From contig NZ_AP022829.1 of assembly GCF_011405655.1 (NCBI RefSeq), positions 1,287,001-1,351,000 of the forward strand: DNA of 64,000 nucleotides, written 5' to 3'. The translations under genes and the position numbers were made by a program. The stretch comes from Adlercreutzia hattorii. Its GTDB lineage: Bacteria; Actinomycetota; Coriobacteriia; Coriobacteriales; Eggerthellaceae. Under the pieces are notes generated by a model. That model was not told the origin of the DNA. It did no database searches and saw nothing but the letters and a program-made list of their open reading frames with translations. Of the stretch, positions 14,601-58,191 are shown one piece after another (within the stretch, counting starts at the first letter, position 1; each line of letters starts with the position of its first letter).

Positions 14601-14628
14601 CCGTGGTTCTGTCCGGGCTACTTCGCAC

Positions 14629-14812
14629 TTGTCTGCAGCTTGCGTTTGGCCTTGCCTGGCCCCCTCTGCCTGCAGCTTGCGCCCGGGCTGCCCCGGTTTC
14701 TCCTGCCTGCAGCTTGCGCCCGGGCTGCCCCGGTTTCTCCTGCCTGCAGCTTGCGCCCGGATCCTTCTGGCCTATCTGCCTGCAGCCCGCGCCCGGGCTG
14801 CCCCGGTCCCGC
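14629..14812. repeat. 37-bp tandem repeat array, about five units
   Basis: Units begin at about 14629, 14666, 14703, 14740 and 14776. The 14666 and 14703 units are identical 37-mers (core CTGCCTGCAGCTTGCGCCCG); the others share the TGCAG-TGCG core but diverge. A frame stays open through it, but composition and lack of a start signal argue against a gene. The repeat is Pro/Ala/Cys-rich if read as protein. Confidence 0.8.
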
Positions 14813-14876: not shown

Positions 14877-15042
14877 TTTCGAGTTGTTAGACTTTTGTTC
14901 GGCGCTATGCCGAGGTAGGTCGCCATGACGTTCGTCAATGTATCCGAATATGGTGAATAGCCCCAGGTCAGAGATGTGATGTGGAAAACGAGACATCGTA
15001 GGGGGGTGGGGCTGCTGTCTGCGAAACTCTAACAACTCGAAA
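14877..15042. repeat. 166-bp inverted-repeat-bounded element, left of nuclease-like gene
   Basis: TTTCGAGTTGTTAGA at 14877-14891 is a perfect 15-bp inverted match to 15028-15042. The same ends recur at 16564-16728 on the other side of the gene at 15324, with nearly the same length (165 bp) but an unrelated interior. No gene is inside. The form is that of a small MITE-like element or a paired regulatory site. Confidence 0.8.
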
Positions 15043-16436: not shown

Positions 16437-16563
16437 GGAGGTGGGGCGAAGTGGGCGGCCGAGGCGAAAGGCCGAGATGCGGGGCTGAACCAAATGCACT
16501 AACGCCATGAGTTTGTTCATTTGTCATACCTGAGACAATGTCTGGTTTGGTTTGAGGCAAAAA

Positions 16564-16728
16564 TTTTGAGTTGTTAGACGTTTGCGGAGCTGGCGCTCGC
16601 ATAAATCTGTAATCTGAACGACTGTATATGCTAAAGTATTTAAAAAAATATCTTAATACGTATATCAATCTCAAAACCACTGCGGGGTAGAGTGATGTGA
16701 ATTGGCTCTAAACTCTAACAACTCGAAA
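16564..16728. repeat. 165-bp inverted-repeat-bounded element, right of nuclease-like gene
   Basis: TTTTGAGTTGTTAGA at 16564-16578 matches the inverse of 16714-16728 at 14 of 15 positions. Ends and length agree with the element at 14877-15042, while the interior here is AT-rich (around 16620-16680) and different. Upstream, 16437-16560 holds nothing I can identify. Confidence 0.8.
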
Positions 16729-16930
16729 AAAGAAGCATCTGGTTAGGAGAGATTGGCCGGTGGTCGATTTCAAGCGATTTCCGCGAAGACTGCAAGGCTG
16801 TATGAGAGTGGGCTTTCGAGCGAGATGCCGTCGGGAAAAGTAGTGGCAACGATTGAAGAAGTGACGCGAAGGGCCGGGGTGTGACGGTGCAGGAGCGCGA
16901 AGGGGTCGGGGTGCGACGGCGCTGGACGGC

Positions 16931-17070
16931 GCAGAAGGGCGCAGAACGGTGCGGGAGAGCGCAACCGGGCGCAACCGGGCGCAGAAGGGCGCAGAAGGGC
17001 GCAGAAGGGCGCAGAACGGTGCGGGAGAGCGCAACCGGGCGCAACCGGGCGCAGAAGGGCGCAGAAGGGG
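16931..17070. repeat. Array of 14 in-phase decamers upstream of secA
   Basis: Fourteen 10-mers run without a gap: GCAGAAGGGC, GCAGAACGGT, GCGGGAGAGC and GCAACCGGGC in ordered blocks, so the series [GCAGAACGGT GCGGGAGAGC], then GCAACCGGGC twice, appears two times. The 10-bp period is close to one helical turn. Frames through it stay open because 10 is not a multiple of 3, but no start signal suggests a gene. Between this and secA (17071-17251) I see only a leader region. Confidence 0.85.
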
Positions 17071-36796: not shown

Positions 36797-37020
36797 CGGG
36801 TATTTGTGCGTTTAGGGATTGCTGGTTTTCGGGTATTCGTGCGCCGACGACAAACTTTTTTGAAAAAATGGTCACAAAATCGAGTTTTGGTTTTTTATGA
36901 GGCGCTCTTTGCGATCATGGAGGCAGCTTTTTACGCAAAACGTCATCTGGAAGGCCTTGGAAAATGCTGATCCAGCCGTTTGACCTTGAACCTCAAACCC
37001 AGAAGTCGATTTTGTGACCA
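36797..37020. repeat. Intergenic repeats before ftsY: direct repeats and a 152-bp inverted-repeat element
   Basis: CGGGTATTTGTGCG (36797-36810) recurs as CGGGTATTCGTGCG (36830-36843). TGGTCACAAAATCGA (36869-36883) is a perfect 15-bp inverted match to 37006-37020, enclosing 152 bp in total. The form and size resemble the IR-bounded elements at 14877, 16564, 52853 and 54645, but the end sequence differs and no nuclease gene is next to it. No gene is visible in 36769-37153. Confidence 0.75.
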
Positions 37021-49740: not shown

Positions 49741-51828
49741 ATGTCCGATACCGCTACCCTCGCCTTCGAGATCGGCACCGAGGAGATCCCCGCCTTCGAT
49801 TTGAAGCGCGCCACCGAGCAGCTCGCTGAGCTCGTACCCGCCGCCCTGGATGCCGTGCGCATCCCCCATGGGGAGGTGGCCATCTACACGAGCCCGCGCC
49901 GCCTCATCGCCATCGTGGCCGACGTGGCCGCCCGAACCGAGGCCCTGGAAGAGGTCTTCCGCGGGCCCGCCGCCAAGATCGCCTTCGACGAGGCGGGCAA
50001 CCCCACCAAGGCCGCCATCGGCTTCGCCCGCGGCAAGGGGCTCGACGTGGACGCGCTTGAGCGCCGCGACGAGAACGGCACCGAGTACGTCTACGCCGTG
50101 CGCCAGGTTCCCTCCCAGGATGTGGCGGCCCTGCTGCCCGAGGTGCTGCGCGGCGTCATCGACGGCATCTCCTGGCCGAAGTCCTGCCGCTGGGGCACCA
50201 CGACCGAGATGTTCTCGCGCCCGGTGCGCTGGCTGGTGGCGCTTCTGGGCGATACGGTGATTCCCGTGGAGTACGCGGGGCTCGTGGCCGATCGCGAGAC
50301 GCGCGGCCATCGCTTCCTGGCCCCCGGCCCGCACACCGTGGCCTCGGCCGACGACCTCGTGTCCGTGGTGGAGGGCGCCTTCGTCGTGCCCACCCAAGAG
50401 GCCCGCGAGGCGGTCATCCGCAAGGGCGTGGCGGCCATCGAGGCGGCTACCGGCTTCACCGCCGATTTGCCGGCCAAAACGCTCACCGAGGTCATCAACC
50501 TCTCCGAGTACCCCACCCCCATGGTGGGCACCTTCGACGAGGAGTTCCTGAAGGTTCCCGAGGAGATCATCGTCGACGCCATGCTCATGCACCAGCGCTA
50601 CTTCCCGCTGTACGACGCCGATGGCAAACTCACCAACAAGTTCATCATCGTCTCCAACGGCGACCCGGCCCACGAGGACACCATCGTCGACGGCAACGAG
50701 CGCGTGGTGGCCGCCCGCCTCTACGACGCGAAGTTCTTCTACGACGAGGATCTGAAGATGCCGCTGGATGCCTACGTCGATCGCCTCGATGAAGTGGTCT
50801 TCCAAGAGGCGCTGGGCACCATGCGCGACAAGACCGCTCGCGTGGTGAAGCTGTCGGCCCGCATCACGTCGGCCGCCGGCATTGAGGCCGCCGAGATGCG
50901 CGATATCGCGCGATCGGCCTACCTGGCCAAGGCCGACCTGGTGACGAGCGCCGTCATCGAGTTCACGAGCGTCCAGGGCATCATGGGCAGCTACTACGCC
51001 ACCGCCGCCGGCGAGGCGCCTCGCGTGGCCCGCGCCATCGCCGAGCACTATCGCCCGCGCTTCTCCGGCGACGCCATCCCCACCGACATCATCGGCCAGG
51101 TGGTGGCGCTCTCCGACAAGATCGACACCATCTGCGGCCTGTTCGCCGTGGGTCAGGCGCCCACCGGCTCCTCCGATCCCTTCGCCCTGCGCCGCGCCGC
51201 CCTGGGCGTGCTGGCCATCCTGGAGGAGACGGGCCTGCCGATCAGCCTGGTGGAGACCATCGACGGCTCGCTCATCATCTACCGCGAGGCCGGGCTTCAG
51301 TTCGACAACGCCGAGGTGCGCCGCGAGATCATCGACTTCTTCGTCACTCGCGAGAAGGTGGCCCTGCGCGATGTCGGCGTGAAGGCCGACACCATCGACG
51401 CCGTGCTCGCCTGCGGCATCGAGGAGCCGATCGTGCTCGCTCGCCGCGCCCGCGCCCTGGAGGCCGCCCGCACCGAGAACCCGCAGGTCTTCGACGACTT
51501 GGCCACCGCTTTTGCCCGCGCGAACAACCTGCGCGAGATCGGTCTGGGCACCGGCTACAAGAAGGCCGAGCTCACCGAGGTGGAAACGGCGCTCGCCGAG
51601 GCCGTGGCCACCGCCGAGGGCAACGTGGCCGCCGCTCTCGCCGACGACCGCTACGCCGACGCGCTTGTGGCCCTGGCGGCCCTGCGCGCGCCGGTGGACG
51701 AGTTCTTCGACACCACCATGGTCATGGACGAGGATCCGGAGGTTCGCGCGAACCGCCTGAAGCTCTTGAACCGCTTCGCCAACGTCTTCGCCCACGTGGC
51801 CGACTTCTCCCAGATGGCGAAGAAATAA
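49741..51828 (+). CDS. glyS: Glycyl-tRNA synthetase beta subunit
   Basis: A 695-residue protein. LAFEIGTEEIPAFDL at the N-terminus and SLVETIDGSLIIYREAGL with the C-terminal anticodon-binding region are typical of GlyS, which recognises tRNA-Gly and completes the alpha2-beta2 enzyme. Its TAA overlaps the ppsR ATG by one base. Normal length. Confidence 0.97.
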   Translation: MSDTATLAFEIGTEEIPAFDLKRATEQLAELVPAALDAVRIPHGEVAIYTSPRRLIAIVADVAARTEALEEVFRGPAAKIAFDEAGNPTKAAIGFARGKGLDVDALERRDENGTEYVYAVRQVPSQDVAALLPEVLRGVIDGISWPKSCRWGTTTEMFSRPVRWLVALLGDTVIPVEYAGLVADRETRGHRFLAPGPHTVASADDLVSVVEGAFVVPTQEAREAVIRKGVAAIEAATGFTADLPAKTLTEVINLSEYPTPMVGTFDEEFLKVPEEIIVDAMLMHQRYFPLYDADGKLTNKFIIVSNGDPAHEDTIVDGNERVVAARLYDAKFFYDEDLKMPLDAYVDRLDEVVFQEALGTMRDKTARVVKLSARITSAAGIEAAEMRDIARSAYLAKADLVTSAVIEFTSVQGIMGSYYATAAGEAPRVARAIAEHYRPRFSGDAIPTDIIGQVVALSDKIDTICGLFAVGQAPTGSSDPFALRRAALGVLAILEETGLPISLVETIDGSLIIYREAGLQFDNAEVRREIIDFFVTREKVALRDVGVKADTIDAVLACGIEEPIVLARRARALEAARTENPQVFDDLATAFARANNLREIGLGTGYKKAELTEVETALAEAVATAEGNVAAALADDRYADALVALAALRAPVDEFFDTTMVMDEDPEVRANRLKLLNRFANVFAHVADFSQMAKK

Positions 51829-52739
51829 TGCATAACAAGACGCCGGCTGAGCGCGCGGCTCGCGTGCCCACCATCCACATCATCTCCGATTCCATCGGCG
51901 AGACGGCCCAGGTGGTGGCGCGCGCCGCCGCGGCCCAGTTCGGCGTCACGAGCCCGCATCTGGAGATCTTCTCGAAGGTGAAGAGCTTCGAGGAGGTGCG
52001 CGGCTACCTTTTGGAACATGCGCGGCATCACGAGGAGGTGCTCGGCGACGACCGCATGCTCGTCATGTACACGCTGGTCAACGCCGACATTCGCGAACCG
52101 TTGCAGGGCTTTTTGGCCGAGCATCCCAACATTGTGGCCGTCGACGTGCTCACCGCCGCCGTTGCCGCCGTCTCCGAGATGAGCGGCATGGAGCCGGTGG
52201 GCAAGCCCGGTATGCTGCGCGTGGTGGATCACAACTACTTCAAGCGCATCGGCGCCCTGGAGTTCACCATCGCCCACGACGACGGCCAGAATCCCGAGGA
52301 CCTCACGAAGGCCGACATCGTGCTTTTGGGGGTCTCGCGCTCTTCCAAGACGCCACTTTCCATCTACCTGGCCCAACAGGGGCTGCGCGTCGCCAATGTG
52401 CCGCTGGATCCTACCACCGAGCCGCCCTCGCAAATCTACGATGTCGATCGCACGCGCCTGTTCGGCCTCATGATCACGCCGGAGGTGCTGCTGGACATCC
52501 GGCGCAAGCGCATCAAGAAGGCGGCGGGGAAGGCCGGCGGCGGCCAGTTCGCCATGCTCGCGAAGAACTACGCCGATCCGGAGTACATCTACCGCGACCT
52601 GGAGGCCAGTCGCGCCCTCATGCGCCGGCTCGGCTGCATCGTCGTGCACACCGAGGGCCGCGCCGTCGAGGAGACCGCCCAGGAGATCCTCCGCTACTAC
52701 GAGCGCAGCCACCCCTCCAATACCGACATCATCGACTAG
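51828..52739 (+). CDS. ppsR: Bifunctional kinase/pyrophosphorylase regulating pyruvate phosphate dikinase (PpsR/PDRP)
   Basis: A 303-residue DUF299 protein. TIHIISDSIGETAQVVARA opens the family and GVSRSSKTPLSIYLAQQG is its P loop. It phosphorylates (with ADP) and dephosphorylates the threonine next to the catalytic histidine of PPDK or PEP synthase, switching the enzyme off and on. The target gene ppdK lies 2.7 kb downstream; in related genomes the two are commonly neighbours, so the nuclease locus between them is probably an insertion. ATG overlaps the glyS stop. Confidence 0.94.
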   Translation: MHNKTPAERAARVPTIHIISDSIGETAQVVARAAAAQFGVTSPHLEIFSKVKSFEEVRGYLLEHARHHEEVLGDDRMLVMYTLVNADIREPLQGFLAEHPNIVAVDVLTAAVAAVSEMSGMEPVGKPGMLRVVDHNYFKRIGALEFTIAHDDGQNPEDLTKADIVLLGVSRSSKTPLSIYLAQQGLRVANVPLDPTTEPPSQIYDVDRTRLFGLMITPEVLLDIRRKRIKKAAGKAGGGQFAMLAKNYADPEYIYRDLEASRALMRRLGCIVVHTEGRAVEETAQEILRYYERSHPSNTDIID

Positions 52740-52852
52740 CCCCCGCTACGCCGCCTTGCCCGCGCCCGCGCCCCGCCTTGCTCGACTTTGTTCCCAATGC
52801 TGGTCAAAAAAGTGGCGGAAACTGCTTTTGCGGAGGCTTTGAGGGCAGGTTC

Positions 52853-53025
52853 TGGCCAAAAAGGAGCCGCTGGCTGCATCAGCTTCACGCTGGGCTCAAT
52901 CGGAGTACTAACTGCGCGCTCCTGAACAGGGAAAACTTTAGTCTGCTATAGAGCTCTTTTCGGAAAAACAAATTAGTGGGCAAAATAAGGGCGATAGCTG
53001 CCAGCTAGCGTGGCATTTTTGGCCA
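52853..53025. repeat. 173-bp inverted-repeat-bounded element, left of second nuclease-like gene
   Basis: TGGCCAAAAA (52853-52862) is a perfect inverted match to TTTTTGGCCA (53016-53025); the right end extends into the dyad TTTTGGCCAAAA (53017-53028). Size is like the elements beside the first nuclease gene, but the end sequence is different. The interior holds no reading frame of note. Confidence 0.65.
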
Positions 53026-53573
53026 AAAGAATTCATGAGGCGCGCCAGAGGATCCTGATTTGTCGGTCGCGCTCTGCTGCATGTGTTGCCGGGCACGCTC
53101 CTCTTGTGTCTCGTCGAGCCCTGCGCGCCTTGCTGCTCGCGCCCCGCCGCAAGCTTCGTCGAGCGCACCCCGCTGCGGATCCAGATATCTTTCAGAGCAA
53201 TTGCGTGGAATGCCGTGAATGTGCGGATCTTGTGCAGTGGGTGCTCGCCGAAGAAGAGCAACGAGAAATTTGTTCCTGAAGTATTTTGCGTTTTGGGAAC
53301 GGCACGACGATCGGCTTGCGTGGTTGTTGATAACTCCCCTCATGTGACCTCGTGCTTTGAAAACTTCAACGCAATGTCTCGTTTCATTCCCGATGGAGTC
53401 CCGACTGGCGCCGGGGATGACGGCAAAATGCACCCCTAGTCAATTGCCTGCTTCTGGCATAGAGTACGCGGAACACTTTCCTCTCGCCCGTTGCGTCGGA
53501 TCGCTCAAGCTGCGCGCTGCGGAGGCGAAACGAAGCGAGAGGCGGTTGTTCAAACGATCGGAAGGGGAGGTTC

Positions 53574-54593
53574 ATGCGCGTTGCTCTCTACGGCGAGTCG
53601 GCATTCGCCTACTATCTCGTTGCGGGCGATGCGCCTTCTGCGGTGGCGCCCCCCAGCGTCCTTGATAAATCCTGCTACCCTACGCAGGCTACCCTGGACT
53701 ATGTGCGTGAGCGAATGCCTTACCTTACGCGCCCCGTGCATTGCTTGGTTCCTAAGTGGGAGCGCTGCACCCTCGATGATGTGCATCTGCATGGCTCGTC
53801 GTATCCCTATCGATCGGGATCCTTTTTGCGCATCGATCATGGCGTTATTGTTTCGTGTCCCGAATTATGCTTTCTTCAGCTGGCCCAGAGCCTCGATCTT
53901 CTCCCGCTGATTCAAGCGGGATGCTTTCTGTGCGGGACTTTCGGCCTCGATCCCTCGGTGCCGTCGGGGCTTATGGGACGAACCCCGTTGACAAGCCCTC
54001 GACGCATCGGCGCCTATCTCGAGCGATGCCCAGGTCACGATGGCCTTGCACGTGCACGGGAGGCTCTGCGGTTTGTCTGTGCCGAGGCAGCATCGCCGCC
54101 TGAAGTGTTCATGCGACTTGTGCTCGGACTCCCAGCACGGTTGGGCGGTTTCGGATTGAGCGGGTCGGTGATGAACAGGCGCATTAAGCCGTCGAAGCGG
54201 GCAAAAGCGCTTGCTGGACGGGAGAGCTTGGTTCCAGACCTGTATTTGCCGGACTGCAAGCTCGACATTGAATTCGATTCGAATGCCGAGCATCTTACGG
54301 CGCGCCAGGCGACGCTTGACGCGACAAAGCGCATGGCGCTGGAAAGTGACGGCCTGAAGGTAATCACCGTTACAACTTCGCAGTTGGCCAGCGCTTCGGC
54401 TATGCGCCACGTCGCCCAGGAGGCGCACGCAAGACGAGGCACGCGATTACGCTTGCGCTGCAAGAACTTCGCATTAAGGCAAAAACGACTCTATCAGCTG
54501 AGATGGTCCATGGACGATTATCTCGACGAGGGGTGGGTTGCGGCGCAGCGGTCTTGCTGTCGGTCAAGCGCGCTGCACGTAGAGGTGTTTTAG
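53574..54593 (+). CDS. Nuclease-like protein of unknown family, paralogue of the gene at 15324
   Basis: A 339-residue protein with GGGGAGG upstream of ATG 53574. The C-terminal region VPDLYLPDCKLDIEFDSNAEH, then ATKRMALESDGLKVITVTTSQLA, mirrors VCDVLWPERGVALEYDSSQFH and RRRSALAAQGLEIRSITASQL of the 15324 protein, giving a D...E-x-D and R..AL pattern like DUF559/Vsr-type PD-(D/E)XK folds. SPPEVFMRLVLGLPARLGGFGLSG is also shared (SPAETSLAIIATAPRNYGGFGMRG). The first ~90 residues differ. It has a Lys/Arg-rich tail. It interrupts the ppsR-ppdK pair and is bracketed by inverted-repeat elements with GGCCAAAA ends. Function is unknown; a selfish or defence role is inferred. Confidence 0.75.
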   Translation: MRVALYGESAFAYYLVAGDAPSAVAPPSVLDKSCYPTQATLDYVRERMPYLTRPVHCLVPKWERCTLDDVHLHGSSYPYRSGSFLRIDHGVIVSCPELCFLQLAQSLDLLPLIQAGCFLCGTFGLDPSVPSGLMGRTPLTSPRRIGAYLERCPGHDGLARAREALRFVCAEAASPPEVFMRLVLGLPARLGGFGLSGSVMNRRIKPSKRAKALAGRESLVPDLYLPDCKLDIEFDSNAEHLTARQATLDATKRMALESDGLKVITVTTSQLASASAMRHVAQEAHARRGTRLRLRCKNFALRQKRLYQLRWSMDDYLDEGWVAAQRSCCRSSALHVEVF

Positions 54594-54644
54594 CGGGGGT
54601 GCCCAGCCACGGGCTCTGATCGCTAGCGTTGCTCGGGTACTTTC

Positions 54645-54807
54645 TGGACAAAAAAGCATTGCGAACTGGCAGTTAAGACGGGAAAATTGACCACTGTCTT
54701 CAGCTGGGAAAAGAAGGGTTATCAAAAGGCCAGGTCACGGGCTTGTGGTAGAGGACGGAGATGCGATTTGCGCGTCGCTTTTGCAGCTGAGGAATGCTTT
54801 TTGGCCA
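54645..54807. repeat. 163-bp inverted-repeat-bounded element, right of second nuclease-like gene
   Basis: TGGACAAAAAAGCA (54645-54658) corresponds to the inverse of TGCTTTTTGGCCA (54795-54807), allowing one mismatch and one A-run length difference; the right end continues into the dyad TTTTGGCCAAAA (54799-54810). Ends resemble those of 52853-53025. Confidence 0.6.
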
Positions 54808-54832
54808 AAACCCACGAAGATGGCTTGCCAAA

Positions 54833-54892
54833 ATGCAGTCAGCGCCACTTTTTTGGCCCGTGATGCAGTTAACGCCGATTTTCTGGCCGTGG
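54833..54892. repeat. Two 30-bp direct repeats containing TTTTnTGGCC
   Basis: Units 54833-54862 and 54863-54892 both read ATGCAGT.A.CGCC..TTTT.TGGCC.GTG. They repeat the same GGCC-plus-A/T-tract motif found at the element ends around this locus. The rest of the gap, 54893-55187, holds no gene I can support. Confidence 0.7.
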
Positions 54893-55144
54893 AGGGCTTG
54901 CATCGAAATGCGGCTGTATGCCACTGTGTCTATTTCCTAGACTGTTCAGACTGTCGTGTGCCGCTGTGCTCGTTGTCCAGAGTGTTTTTCCTGCTGCGTT
55001 TCTTGAGCGCCATTGTCTCGGGCGAATGATGCACCATCGGCAGATGAGCGGGGAGAGTTGGGGTTGCAAACGACCGCTTGTGAGATTTTGGGGTACTGCG
55101 GCCTGATGGGGGAGGGGAATCGCGAAATAGGCGAGATTATCCCT

Positions 55145-55257
55145 TATAATTGAAGCCAACTTGTTTCGTTTCGGTGCTCAGGCAACAGGGATGCCCGCGA
55201 CTCGGGGATGTTCGCGACGTTCGGGATATCCACGATGCTCGGGGATGCCCGCGATGT
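55145..55257. repeat. -10-like box and 18-bp tandem repeats upstream of ppdK
   Basis: A perfect TATAAT lies at 55145-55150 (no good -35), possibly the ppdK promoter. Downstream, four imperfect units of about 18 bp run from 55188 to 55257 with the pattern GGGATG(C/T)(C/T)CGCGA. The stretch 55258-55473 is a long leader without a recognised gene. Confidence 0.5.
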
Positions 55258-55473
55258 GCCTGCGGCTAAGCTCGGAACGAAGCGGGGCGCCTTGTCCGGC
55301 TCGGCTGGCATGGCGGGAAAGGCAACCGCGCCAATGCGCGCGCACGCCGCCACTTGCGCTCGACGCGCCCGAGAGGGCGGCGGGGCGGTAGCGGATGCAG
55401 CGGGTGTAAAAGCGCGGGTAAGGCAATCGCGGCGCGCACAAGGGGCGTCGCTTAAGCTTTAAGGAGAAGTAAG

Positions 55474-58191
55474 GTGACAGAAGCAGTGAAGCGCGTCTAC
55501 GCCTTCGGCAAGGACGCCAACGGGAACAATGTGACCGAGGGCAACACCGAGATGAAGTGGGTGCTCGGCGGCAAGGGCGCGAACCTCGCCGAGATGGCCA
55601 ACATCGGGCTGCCGGTGCCTCCCGGATTCACCATCACGTGCCAAACCTGCATGGAGTACGCCAACGCCGGCAACGTGTGGCCGGAAGGCGCGCTCGACAC
55701 CATCGCCGAGTACCGCGCCGACCTGGAGGAGCGCATGGGCAAGCGCCTCGGTGACGCCGAGGATCCGCTGCTCGTGTCCGTTCGCTCCGGCGCCCCCTTC
55801 TCCATGCCCGGCATGATGGACACCGTGCTGAACCTCGGCCTTAACGACGAGTCCATCAACGGCCTCATCAAGCAGACCGACAACCCGCGCTTCGCTTGGG
55901 ACTCCTATCGCCGCTTCATCCAGATGTTCTCCAACGTCGTGATGGGCCTCGACGGCGATCTGTTCGAGAACGCCATCGTCGCCATGAAGAACGACCGCGG
56001 CGTCGCCTCCGACACCGATCTGACCGCCGAGGATCTGCAGGAGCTCGTCGACGAGTTCAAGGCCATCTTCGCCGAGAACGTCGACGGCGAGGCCTACCCG
56101 TCGCTCGTCGTCGATGGCGCCGTTGCCTTCCCGCAGGATCCCATGGTGCAGCTGCAGCTGGCCATCGAGGCCGTCTTCGGTTCTTGGAACAACCCGCGCG
56201 CGGTCCTCTACCGCCAGAAGGAGAAGATCGCCGACGATCTGGGCACCGCCGTCAACGTGCAGTCCATGGTGTTCGGCAACAAGGGCGACACATCCGCCAC
56301 GGGCGTGGCCTTCACCCGCAACCCCGCCAACGGCGAGCGCGAGTTCTACGGCGACTACCTGGTGAACGCCCAGGGCGAGGACGTCGTGGCCGGCATCCGC
56401 AACACGAGCCCCATCGCCGATCTGAAGACCGTCGAGGGCTTGGAAGAGGCCGGCGCCCAGCTCGAGGAGATCTTCGACGTGCTGGAGAACCACTTCCGCG
56501 ATATGTGCGACATCGAGTTCACCATCGAGCAGGGCAAGCTGTGGATGCTGCAGACGCGCGCCGGCAAGCGCACCGCAGCGGCCGCCCTGCGCATCGCCAT
56601 CGAGATGGAGAAGGAAGGCCTCATCACCAAGGAAGAGGCCATCATGCGCGTGGCCCCCGACCAGCTCGACCAGCTGCTGCACCCGCAGTTCGACAAGAAC
56701 GCCACCTACGACGTGGTGGCCCGCGGCCTGAACGCCTCCCCGGGCGCCGCGGTGGGCGAGGCCGTCTTCTCCGCCGCCGACGCCGTGGCCGCCGCCGAGG
56801 CCGGCCGTAAGTGCGTGCTCGTGCGCTGGGAGACCAACCCCGACGACCTCGCCGGCATGATCGCCGCCGAGGGCATCCTCACCTCCCATGGCGGCAAGAC
56901 CAGCCATGCAGCCGTCATCGCCCGCGGCATGGGTGCGCCGTGCGTGTGCGGCGTGGAAGCGCTGAAGATCGACGCGGCCAAGAAGGAGGCCGCCATCGCC
57001 GGCACTGATCTGGTCATCCGCGAGGGCGACATGATCTCCATTGACGGCACCACGGGCATCGTGGTCTTGGGCGCGGTGGATCTGGTCATGCCCGAGCTCA
57101 CCGGCGACTTGGACACCATCCTGGAGTGGGCCGACGAGGTTCGCACCCTGGGCGTGCGCGCCAACGCCGACAACCCCGAGGACGCCCAGCTCTCCCGCGA
57201 CTTCGGCGCCGAGGGCATCGGCCTTTGCCGCACCGAGCACATGTTCCTGGGCGATCGCAAGCAGATCATCCAGACCTTCATTCTGAACGACGACGAGCTC
57301 ATCCGCGAGAAGGCCGTCGCCGATCTGTTCGAGGCCCAGGTGGGCGACTTCTACGGCATGTTCAAGGCCATGGACGGCCTGCCGGTGATCGTGCGCCTGC
57401 TCGACCCGCCGCTGCACGAGTTTTTGGAGAGCCCGCGCGAGCTGGCTGTTGAGATCGCCAAGATGGAGGCGACCGGCGCCGCCCCCGACGCCATCGCCGA
57501 GAAGCGCGACCTGCTCGAGAAGATCGACGGCTTCGCGGAGCAGAACCCGATGCTCGGCATGCGCGGCTGCCGTCTGGGCATCGTGTACCCCATCCTCCCC
57601 GAGATGCAGGTGCGCGCCATCGCCACGGCCTGCGCTCGTCTACAGAAGGAAGGCTTCTCGCCGAAGCCCGAGATCATGATCCCGCTCGTGTCCGTGCTGC
57701 CCGAGCTCGCGAAGCTGCGCGGCGTGGCCGAGGCCGTCATCGCTGACGTGTCCGCTGCGGAGGGCGTCGAGCTGGATATCCCCGTTGGCACGATGATCGA
57801 GCTGCCGCGCGCGGCCGTCACCGCCAACGAGATCGCCACCGAGGCCGACTTCTTCTCCTTCGGCACCAACGACCTCACCCAGACCACCTTCGGCTTCAGC
57901 CGCGACGACGTGGAGGGCGAGTTCGTCCCGCAGTACCTCAACGAGCACCTGCTGCCGTACAACCCCTTCGCCACGATTGACGCCGGTGTGGCGAAGCTCG
58001 TGGAAATGGGTGTGGCGCTGGGGCATGAGGGCAACCCCGATCTCGTCTGCGGCGTCTGTGGCGAGCACGGCGGCGACCCGGAGAGCATCCACACGTTCAA
58101 CCGCATCGGTCTGGACTACGTGAGCTGCTCGCCCTATCGCGTGCCGGTGGCCCGTCTGGCCGCCGCCCAGGCAGCCATCAAGCAGCGCTAG
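55474..58191 (+). CDS. ppdK: Pyruvate, phosphate dikinase
   Basis: A 905-residue enzyme from GTG 55474 with AAGGAGAAGTAAG upstream. ATP-grasp domain at the N-terminus (GGKGANLAEMANIGLPVPPGF), central phosphohistidine domain with GGKTSHAAVIARGMGAPC in which H478 carries the phosphate and T476 is the site PpsR would modify, and a C-terminal PEP/pyruvate barrel (GLCRTEHMF, GTNDLTQTTFGFSRDD, VCGVCGEHGGD). It interconverts pyruvate + ATP + Pi and PEP + AMP + PPi, serving gluconeogenesis or PPi-linked glycolysis in anaerobes. Normal length. Confidence 0.97.
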   Translation: MTEAVKRVYAFGKDANGNNVTEGNTEMKWVLGGKGANLAEMANIGLPVPPGFTITCQTCMEYANAGNVWPEGALDTIAEYRADLEERMGKRLGDAEDPLLVSVRSGAPFSMPGMMDTVLNLGLNDESINGLIKQTDNPRFAWDSYRRFIQMFSNVVMGLDGDLFENAIVAMKNDRGVASDTDLTAEDLQELVDEFKAIFAENVDGEAYPSLVVDGAVAFPQDPMVQLQLAIEAVFGSWNNPRAVLYRQKEKIADDLGTAVNVQSMVFGNKGDTSATGVAFTRNPANGEREFYGDYLVNAQGEDVVAGIRNTSPIADLKTVEGLEEAGAQLEEIFDVLENHFRDMCDIEFTIEQGKLWMLQTRAGKRTAAAALRIAIEMEKEGLITKEEAIMRVAPDQLDQLLHPQFDKNATYDVVARGLNASPGAAVGEAVFSAADAVAAAEAGRKCVLVRWETNPDDLAGMIAAEGILTSHGGKTSHAAVIARGMGAPCVCGVEALKIDAAKKEAAIAGTDLVIREGDMISIDGTTGIVVLGAVDLVMPELTGDLDTILEWADEVRTLGVRANADNPEDAQLSRDFGAEGIGLCRTEHMFLGDRKQIIQTFILNDDELIREKAVADLFEAQVGDFYGMFKAMDGLPVIVRLLDPPLHEFLESPRELAVEIAKMEATGAAPDAIAEKRDLLEKIDGFAEQNPMLGMRGCRLGIVYPILPEMQVRAIATACARLQKEGFSPKPEIMIPLVSVLPELAKLRGVAEAVIADVSAAEGVELDIPVGTMIELPRAAVTANEIATEADFFSFGTNDLTQTTFGFSRDDVEGEFVPQYLNEHLLPYNPFATIDAGVAKLVEMGVALGHEGNPDLVCGVCGEHGGDPESIHTFNRIGLDYVSCSPYRVPVARLAAAQAAIKQR

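Follow-up and report, generated by a model that had tools for sequence, protein, structure and literature searches.

The window analysed here, a 64,000-nt stretch of the chromosome of Adlercreutzia hattorii, from a genus of gut bacteria, carries at 53574-54593 (plus strand) a gene for a 339-aa protein joining an AbiEi-like domain to a nuclease domain resembling those of Vsr and I-Bth0305I, as judged from its open reading frame (ORF), invariant residues and the fold matches of its structure model. It is one of nine copies of this nuclease gene in the 2.9-Mb genome (G000 below). The gene is flanked by paired inverted arms; such pairs are private to groups of orthologous genes, and several families of them are also dispersed between other genes, with the arms spaced in whole helical turns. 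The interpretation we favour, tentatively and with a little less than even confidence, is a resident nuclease with a private family of DNA site pairs, which it would bridge and which would persist in the manner of REPINs.

To the left of the gene, a paired-arm element spans 52850-53028, with 27-nt arms (52850-52876 and 53002-53028) that are 78% complementary and a core, GCTCCTGAACAGGGAAAACTTT, near its centre (52918-52939, plus strand). The right-hand element, at 54645-54807, is defined by repeat coordinates, motif matches, and the core scan, and has its core, GCCCGTGACCTGGCCTTTTGAT, on the minus strand (54721-54742). These are the elements described, from the letters of this stretch, in an earlier note, and both are present as reported: 173 bp at 52853-53025 with ends TGGCCAAAAA...TTTTTGGCCA, and 163 bp at 54645-54807 with ends TGGACAAAAA...TTTTTGGCCA. 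So is its outer pair, composed of GCAGTTTCCGCCACTTTTTTGACCA (52801-52825, minus strand, from motif and arm-pattern matches) and GCAGTCAGCGCCACTTTTTTGGCCC (54835-54859, plus strand), along with 30-bp direct repeats starting at 54835 and 54865. A further arm, GCAGTTAACGCCGATTTTCTGGCC (54865-54888, plus strand), lies 30 bp beyond the outer one; it and GCAGTCAGCGCCACTTTTTTGGCCC come from the direct-repeat list and an arm-pattern match.

With up to one mismatch, TTTTTGGCCA has 15 matches in the window where 1.83 are expected, and none of 100 shuffles reaches 15; eight of the matches are inside 52801-54859, two of these being overlapping readings of one palindrome. Considered by itself, the window locus rises only a little above chance as an inverted repeat, with a best-pair score of 12 (99% quantile of shuffled flanks of other loci, 12.5); its upstream and downstream flanks match each other with scores of 13-14 (control 99% quantile, 16-17). 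Its elements are secure because the 24-base arm pattern is specific and because both element centres are top-ranked for the core. The pattern has six matches in the genome, none when reversed, and none in eight sister genomes; three are at the locus itself and three at two other intergenic places, a pair at 469807-469978 and a single arm at 92216. The two centres, both outside the core's training set, rank second and third (15.4 and 13.0) among core matches in the 64 kb, the fourth (12.6, barely under the third) being in no element. After the solo element with its window-type arm at the 92216 place (G000:C1:92216; L103, 1500-1850) come several direct repeats whose ends read TTTTTGGCC or TTTTTGACC and which resemble those to the right of the window gene. 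An Rfam scan of 52600-55500 gave no family match up to E = 1, and a known structured RNA at the locus was dropped as a candidate.

Homologues of the gene give 60 matches in nine congeneric genomes, with 4-9 per genome, and occur in 152 of 246 sampled genomes of the same class. Fifty-seven of the 60 were fetched with their flanks (the other three are short pieces on C19, C103, and C27 of G006), of which 54 had enough flank for the flank and element counts. With an element defined as an inverted repeat scoring at least 15 and having 60-200 bp between its arms, 39 of the 54 loci have a strong one in a flank, compared to 43 of 600 random G000 windows; 12 have elements in both flanks, compared to none of the 600. 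The private pair, one on each side, that the earlier note proposed to look for at each homologue is found at these 12 loci at this strict threshold, and not at all 54. When upstream and downstream flanks are compared, 23 of 54 loci score at least 18 in one sense, where mismatched loci gave a 99% quantile of 16-17 and a maximum of 30. At one locus (L052, G003:C5:130956) one flanking element aligns with the other across some 168 bp at a score of 156, far above the other loci, which suggests a recent duplication or gene conversion. Outside the nine genomes, 19 of 26 loci (from 43, less those in the nine; one, L215, is from another Adlercreutzia) have a flank pair scoring at least 15, while 260 shuffled flanks, a control without natural DNA, do not exceed 13.5. 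They include loci in Gordonibacter, Paraeggerthella, Senegalimassilia, an Atopobiaceae, and a Lachnospiraceae metagenome-assembled genome; no qualifying pair was found at the other seven (L224, L229, L232, and L235-L238).

Arm sequences agree between orthologues and differ between paralogues, bearing out the proposal of a common protein family with locus-specific ends. The co-evolution of protein and ends also suggested by the earlier note is found as well: arm similarity follows N-domain identity with a Mantel r of 0.67, matched by 0 of 5000 permutations (28 loci, a set of aligned loci with an element scoring at least 16, together with the window locus, which scores 12 and was included by hand). 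The 10 of 378 locus pairs with similar arms have a mean N-domain identity of 0.65, vs. 0.31 for the rest.

Four arm families were searched in the nine genomes. Two are widely dispersed, with up to 31 arms per genome and for the most part in genomes that have the cognate gene; of the others, the window's own has its two extra places, and one is confined to its own locus in G000. L060-type arms number 31 in G000, 31 in G003, 13 in G008, 9 in G004, 2 in G001, and 0 in G002, G005, G006, and G007 (reversed control, 0 in all nine); G000, G003, and G008 all have an orthologue, the cognate genes being L060, L056, and L062. L088-type arms number 31 in G001, 19 in G003, 28 in G004, and 22 in G008, with 0 in the other five and 0 for the control. 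All four of these genomes carry an L088 orthologue, and there are 0 arms in the four genomes where none was found; G000 has an L088 gene with somewhat different arms, whose pattern has 13 matches in G003, largely the L088-type elements. Absences from G006 and G007, which are 79 and 85% complete, are weak.

Paired arms lie mostly 87, 98, 107, 118, 129, or 139 bp apart, a 10.5-bp rhythm. Start to start, the observed distances are 87, 98, 118-119, 129-132, and 140 bp for the L060 type (35 pairs) and 107, 117, 128-130, 137-140, 149, and 172 bp for the L088 type (44 pairs), arms with no partner within 3 mismatches being left out. The best periods are 10.6 bp (R 0.95) and 10.8 bp (R 0.90), respectively; when every distance is entered a single time, R becomes 0.86 and 0.84. 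If distances are first merged into clusters, R at 10.5 bp is 0.99 for the L060 type (five clusters), which none of 20000 random sets equals or exceeds, and 0.89 for the L088 type (six clusters), which 137 of 20000 do; when the period may vary within 9.5-11.5 bp, 23 and 106 of 20000 random sets do as well. Rayleigh tests at 10.5 bp on single genomes give p values of 2.7e-5, 4.4e-6, 9.7e-6, and 1.6e-4, though these assume independent elements and are flattered by the many that share one distance. A third family in the genome (TGGTCAC...) has distances of 120, 131, 131, 131, 131, and 142 bp. Spacing by whole helical turns suggests a protein holding two sites together, and points to probable protein bridging of double-stranded DNA, not a single-strand hairpin.

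A core is shared by elements whose arms differ. When the central parts of 54 elements were searched by expectation maximization, the motif recovered was TGACCWGG with A/T-rich bases after it; its two best seeds reached log-likelihoods of 222-225, vs. 65-73 for shuffled sequence. It is present in 36 of the 54, in 29 of these at 0.44-0.56 of the element length, with the consensus CCWGG; the W (position 10) is T in 25 sites and A in 11, never G or C. CCWGG is a Dcm/PspGI-type site. In a 400-kb sample of the genome, seven of 19 core matches are centred in a strong inverted repeat, compared with 1 of 91 for 20 column-permuted motifs and 0 of 2 for the reversed motif. None of the seven is near any of the nine nuclease-gene places; by extrapolation, there would be about 50 such solo elements in the genome. 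The core was also considered as a promoter feature, an idea dropped since its strand varies relative to the gene.

The AlphaFold2 model of the window protein has a pLDDT (predicted local distance difference test) of 94.6, and its residues 172-289 match I-Bth0305I (Z 10.9, 2.4 A, 95 residues) and Vsr (Z 8.2, 2.8 A, 96 residues), as well as a Neisseria endonuclease-like protein (3hrl, Z 9.6) and RAP-domain proteins (Z 8.1-9.7), with weaker matches to TnsA (Z 6.1) and PspGI (Z 5.9). In 37 aligned homologues (of 57, chosen by hand), D222, E233, D235, D249, and R253 are invariant, as are P96, S174, E177, G191, G192, and N201. Residues 1-170, modelled alone (pLDDT 92.1), match AbiEi (6y8q; Z 8.1, 3.6 A, 120 residues), and further Rv2827c (1zel, Z 5.4) and chain A of the MenAT1 complex (8an5, Z 5.3); no other entry reached Z 5. 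The part of AbiEi covered, residues 67-195, we take to be mostly its C-terminal domain and not the winged helix, of which no counterpart was seen in the N-domain match. These fold statements rest on a second look with VIA, where Z below 8 may mean little; Foldseek alone gave no match at E ≤ 0.001 for the full-length or N-domain model.

Known families say little more. The window protein belongs to no Pfam family; among ten homologues scanned, matches below the curated cut-offs were found to MTES_1575 in eight and DUF559 in four, with none for the window protein. No NCBIfam family was found for nine proteins scanned. Plasmid or phage carriage is unsupported: 50,697 phage records held no homologue at E 0.01, and three plasmid matches are partial, none covering 80% of the query. 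In a tree of 54 of the 57 loci (a stop filter took out L061, L067, and L085), orthologue groups hold mostly one gene per genome; the idea that some homologue genes are broken was dropped, the stops in L085, L061, and L067 being natural gene ends overrun by the match.

Individual elements mostly keep their places. Thirteen of 16 in G001 have a counterpart in the matching G004 stretch, and over 12 of these 13 orthologous pairs (L247/L263 was left out, with only one arm within 3 mismatches) identity is 93.5% for arms, 90% for cores, 82.4% for spacers, and 81.1% for flanks. Arms exceed flanks in 10 of the 12 (one tie, one below) and spacers also in 10 of 12.

From these observations we infer binding, bridging (looping), and cutting, with a cut position and an origin for the copies, along the following lines. 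Each locus would be a resident, largely vertically inherited nuclease gene owning a private family of site pairs, a pair being two inverted recognition arms of roughly 25-35 bp, some 87-140 bp apart in whole helical turns; two thirds of gene-side pairs in Adlercreutzia carry the CCWGG-type core at or near the centre. Pairs flank the gene, and several families lie dispersed between other genes as well. The likeliest mechanism is that nuclease protomers, bound to both arms from the same side of the helix, bridge the two so that the spacer forms a small loop; action at or near the pair centre would fall to the Vsr/I-Bth0305I-like domain. The sites might persist as a REPIN-like population tied to the cognate protein, whether copies arise by occasional cutting and repair, selection acts on the host, or both. 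A bridging nuclease is plausible because AbiEi binds paired inverted repeats and I-Bth0305I dimerises on a long target, according to excerpts of the sources cited below.

Several observations weigh against this scheme. The core is missing from 18 of the 54 elements and from most loci of other genera, so it cannot be a universal cut site. A C5-methylase search gave no match in G005 or G008, weakening the idea that Dcm protects CCWGG; G008 nevertheless has CCWGG cores, which speaks against a Dcm-protected cut site. The AbiEi match spans only AbiEi residues 67-195, and arm similarity tracks the nuclease domain (Spearman 0.40) nearly as well as the N-domain (0.42), so that either domain could be the one that reads the arms; elements of different genomes are, moreover, partly related by descent. 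G004 and G001 hold L060-type arms with no cognate gene found there, while G007 and G006 have related genes (L058 and L075) and no arms by the L060 pattern; the pattern for the L088 arms of G000 has just four matches in that genome, all at its own locus. As to conservation, the pooled flank identity is lowered by badly aligned pairs (0.50, 0.59, and 0.65), both arms were required within 4 mismatches or fewer, which favours conserved arms, and one pair (L257) has arms below both flank and spacer. There are also no near-identical dispersed copies among the spacers of one genome.

As a second possibility, unlikely but the most serious of the alternatives, the protein might be a looping transcription regulator, with the site pairs as its operators and the nuclease domain a leftover or accessory. 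Helical phasing is a requirement of DNA-looping regulators, and AbiEi, in the excerpted source, represses through a pair of inverted repeats (PMC7319586). The similarly built TGGTCAC family leans to divergent gaps (5 of 7, vs. 37 of 124 in the background), but the two nuclease-tied families do not. No scored element overlaps a called gene by more than 60 bp (the largest overlap is 32), so the elements are intergenic; the 40 of L088 type are in 16 tandem, 9 divergent, and 13 convergent gaps, with 2 at a contig or locus edge, and the 23 of L060 type in 13, 3, and 7, against 66 tandem, 37 divergent, and 21 convergent among G000 gaps of at least 200 bp. (The elements were those of the loci at hand and the gene caller was home-made and misses the nuclease gene itself; orthologous G001 and G004 elements are counted twice, and the background is from G000 only.) There is thus no promoter preference in either type, and convergent gaps are somewhat over-represented. 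The invariance of the expected active-site acidic residues in 37 sequences also argues against this reading.

The TGGTCAC family itself (TGGTCACAAAATCGAG...) has 13 arm matches in the genome, with spacings of 120, 131, or 142 bp, and the seven gaps examined were five divergent and two tandem. One member lies in the window at 36869-37020, without a core at this copy.

As a third, improbable, possibility, the elements could be mobile in the manner of miniature inverted-repeat transposable elements, with the arms as terminal repeats and the protein moving them as a TnsA-like transposase. Inverted-repeat ends, many copies, a gene flanked by copies, and the fold match to TnsA would all fit, as would the two copies beside the gene at L052. 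Some spacers are mildly alike, with top pair scores of 14.5 and 21.0 vs. 10.0 and 10.5 for shuffled pairs (core included), but spacers of copies are not near-identical, and most G001 copies have their same-place counterpart in G004. No target-site duplications were found in 30 elements (16 and 14, from two families) in comparison with mismatched flanks: candidate duplications average 1.75 in length vs. 1.67 for the control, and 4.14 vs. 4.38. Two places compared in G004 showed a 6.7-kb replacement (at L242) and a half arm (at L254), neither of them a clean empty site. The earlier note's view of the repeats as ends of one inserted unit is unsupported for want of duplications and of a clean empty site, and because the same elements occur alone elsewhere.

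A free-standing homing endonuclease gene with the element as its target seems equally doubtful, although the best fold match is to a homing endonuclease, I-Bth0305I, which by the excerpted account dimerises on a target of nearly 60 bp (PMC3943268). The window gene lies between two neighbours, ppsR-like (51828-52739, plus strand) upstream and ppdK-like (55474-58191, plus strand) downstream, both ORFs with function names taken from the earlier note, which had also proposed comparing their spacing in relatives. A nuclease homologue is present there in six of the nine genomes (identified from ppdK alone in G004 and from ppsR alone in G006), and the six form one clade (support 97/90). In G003 (Adlercreutzia mucosicola), only about 135 bp separate ppsR from ppdK and the nuclease gene is absent, as would suit a homing gene; in G007 a contig end interrupts the region, and no ppsR match was found in G008. 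This supports the earlier note's impression of a locus that looks inserted, the unit being an extra at this place, whether by insertion or through loss in G003. Homing genes as a rule disrupt their target, whereas at this one locus the gene keeps intact elements on its own flanks, and the window's arm pattern has no match in the empty G003; the orthologues, for their part, stay at one place as a clade.

The end motif is, as the earlier note's argument needed, not equally common across intergenic DNA: TGG[CT]CAAA has 18 matches in the 10.8 kb surrounding the six ppsR-locus orthologues, compared to 8 in the 100.8 kb that surround the other 51 homologues and 24 in the 400-kb sample, although it is absent at three of the six (L043, L050, and L091). 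The nuclease gene has the same direction as ppsR in G000 and the opposite direction in G001, G002, G005, and G006, with which the G004 gene agrees as judged relative to ppdK; one reading is a flip of the gene between two palindromic flanks in G000. This flipped orientation, the shared central core, the helical phasing, and the solo elements are all absent from the earlier note. At L094 (G006), the closest relative by ppsR identity (91%), an array of GGAAGCGCCCGCGTTCCCGCCC-type repeats lies between ppsR and the nuclease gene.

A restriction or self-marking device, with foreign DNA as the substrate of the nuclease and the chromosomal pairs serving to sequester or control the enzyme, is very improbable despite the Dcm/PspGI nature of CCWGG and the fold match to PspGI, given the absence of C5-methylase matches in G005 and G008 and PADLOC matches that are weak and limited to two of seven proteins (E 0.004 and 0.051); the absence of homologues from phage records is neutral here.

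In habit, a nuclease keeping its own site pairs would be most like REPIN-RAYT systems, with an unrelated protein. Excerpted accounts of the latter describe inverted arms with a highly diverse spacer, intergenic dispersal, cognate repeats beside a resident gene, vertical inheritance, and repeats also in genomes without the gene (PMC8049555, PMC3116915). As far as these accounts go, the dispersed intergenic inverted doublets with diverse spacers (two families) and the repeats flanking the gene are alike here, and the ppsR-group gene keeps its place in six of nine genomes, but there are 4-9 paralogues per genome. The differences are an AbiEi-like/Vsr-like nuclease in place of a tyrosine (HUH) transposase (RAYT/TnpA-REP), whole-helical-turn spacing, tens and not hundreds of copies per family, and the CCWGG core in many Adlercreutzia elements.

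Other known systems share parts of the protein. The modelled fold of residues 172-289 and the conserved acidic residues suggest an EDxHD/Vsr-like domain akin to I-Bth0305I and Vsr, but unlike I-Bth0305I the gene is not intronic, its arms are intact beside it, and its element is about 150 bp, not 60. Residues 1-170 resemble AbiEi and Rv2827c in predicted fold; in the excerpted source, the binding site is one pair of 23-bp inverted repeats for AbiEi and two such pairs for Rv2827c (PMC7319586), while the sites here are about 100 bp apart, not 3-13 bp, and dispersed, no winged-helix counterpart is seen, and the gene's neighbours are the ppsR-like and ppdK-like genes. With VsrA/DUF559 there is a sub-threshold Pfam similarity, in relatives of the window protein only; VsrA of Caulobacter is described, in the part of the source available, as functionally tied to a cytosine methylase (PMC12907096), which is not consistently present in the genomes here.

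The closest known system differs in its defining protein, and no paper on a system like the present one was among the matches listed in searches of open-licence PubMed Central literature. What is seen here could plausibly, though we would not put it higher, be a new class of selfish or domesticated chromosomal system in Coriobacteriia and beyond, an independent REPIN-RAYT-like invention with an unrelated enzyme. The site pairs would then be read as helically phased double-stranded DNA, each family kept by its own nuclease, with the variable arms giving identity and the shared CCWGG core the point of action in some lineages. If so, dispersed bacterial inverted-repeat families would not be exclusive to RAYT-type transposases: a nuclease family unrelated to these, with homologues in 152 of the 246 class genomes sampled, would keep repeat families of its own; up to nine paralogues per congeneric genome with group-specific arms would provide a natural matched set of proteins and sites for a recognition rule, and a direct test of whether bacterial repeats are maintained via protein-bridged double-stranded site pairs.

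The window contains a second member of the family, the paralogue L064 (15324-16436, plus strand), found by the homologue search and placed in the tree. The element to its left (14877-15042) has the private arm TTTCGAGTTGTTAGA and a core on the minus strand (14954-14975), the best core match in the window, which was in the training set; the one to its right (16562-16728) has the same private arms and no core among the 40 best matches listed. Beside this locus there are tandem repeats of 36-37 bp and 10 bp (GGCGCAGAAG-like), at 14628-14807 and 16908-17067. At another paralogue of the genome (G000:C1:2125301; L005, 1181-1270), three 30-bp tandem repeats, GGAAATAGATGGGAGTTTCGA, lie on the 3' side of the gene, and a solo element at G000:C1:205083-205202 has arms of this same sequence.

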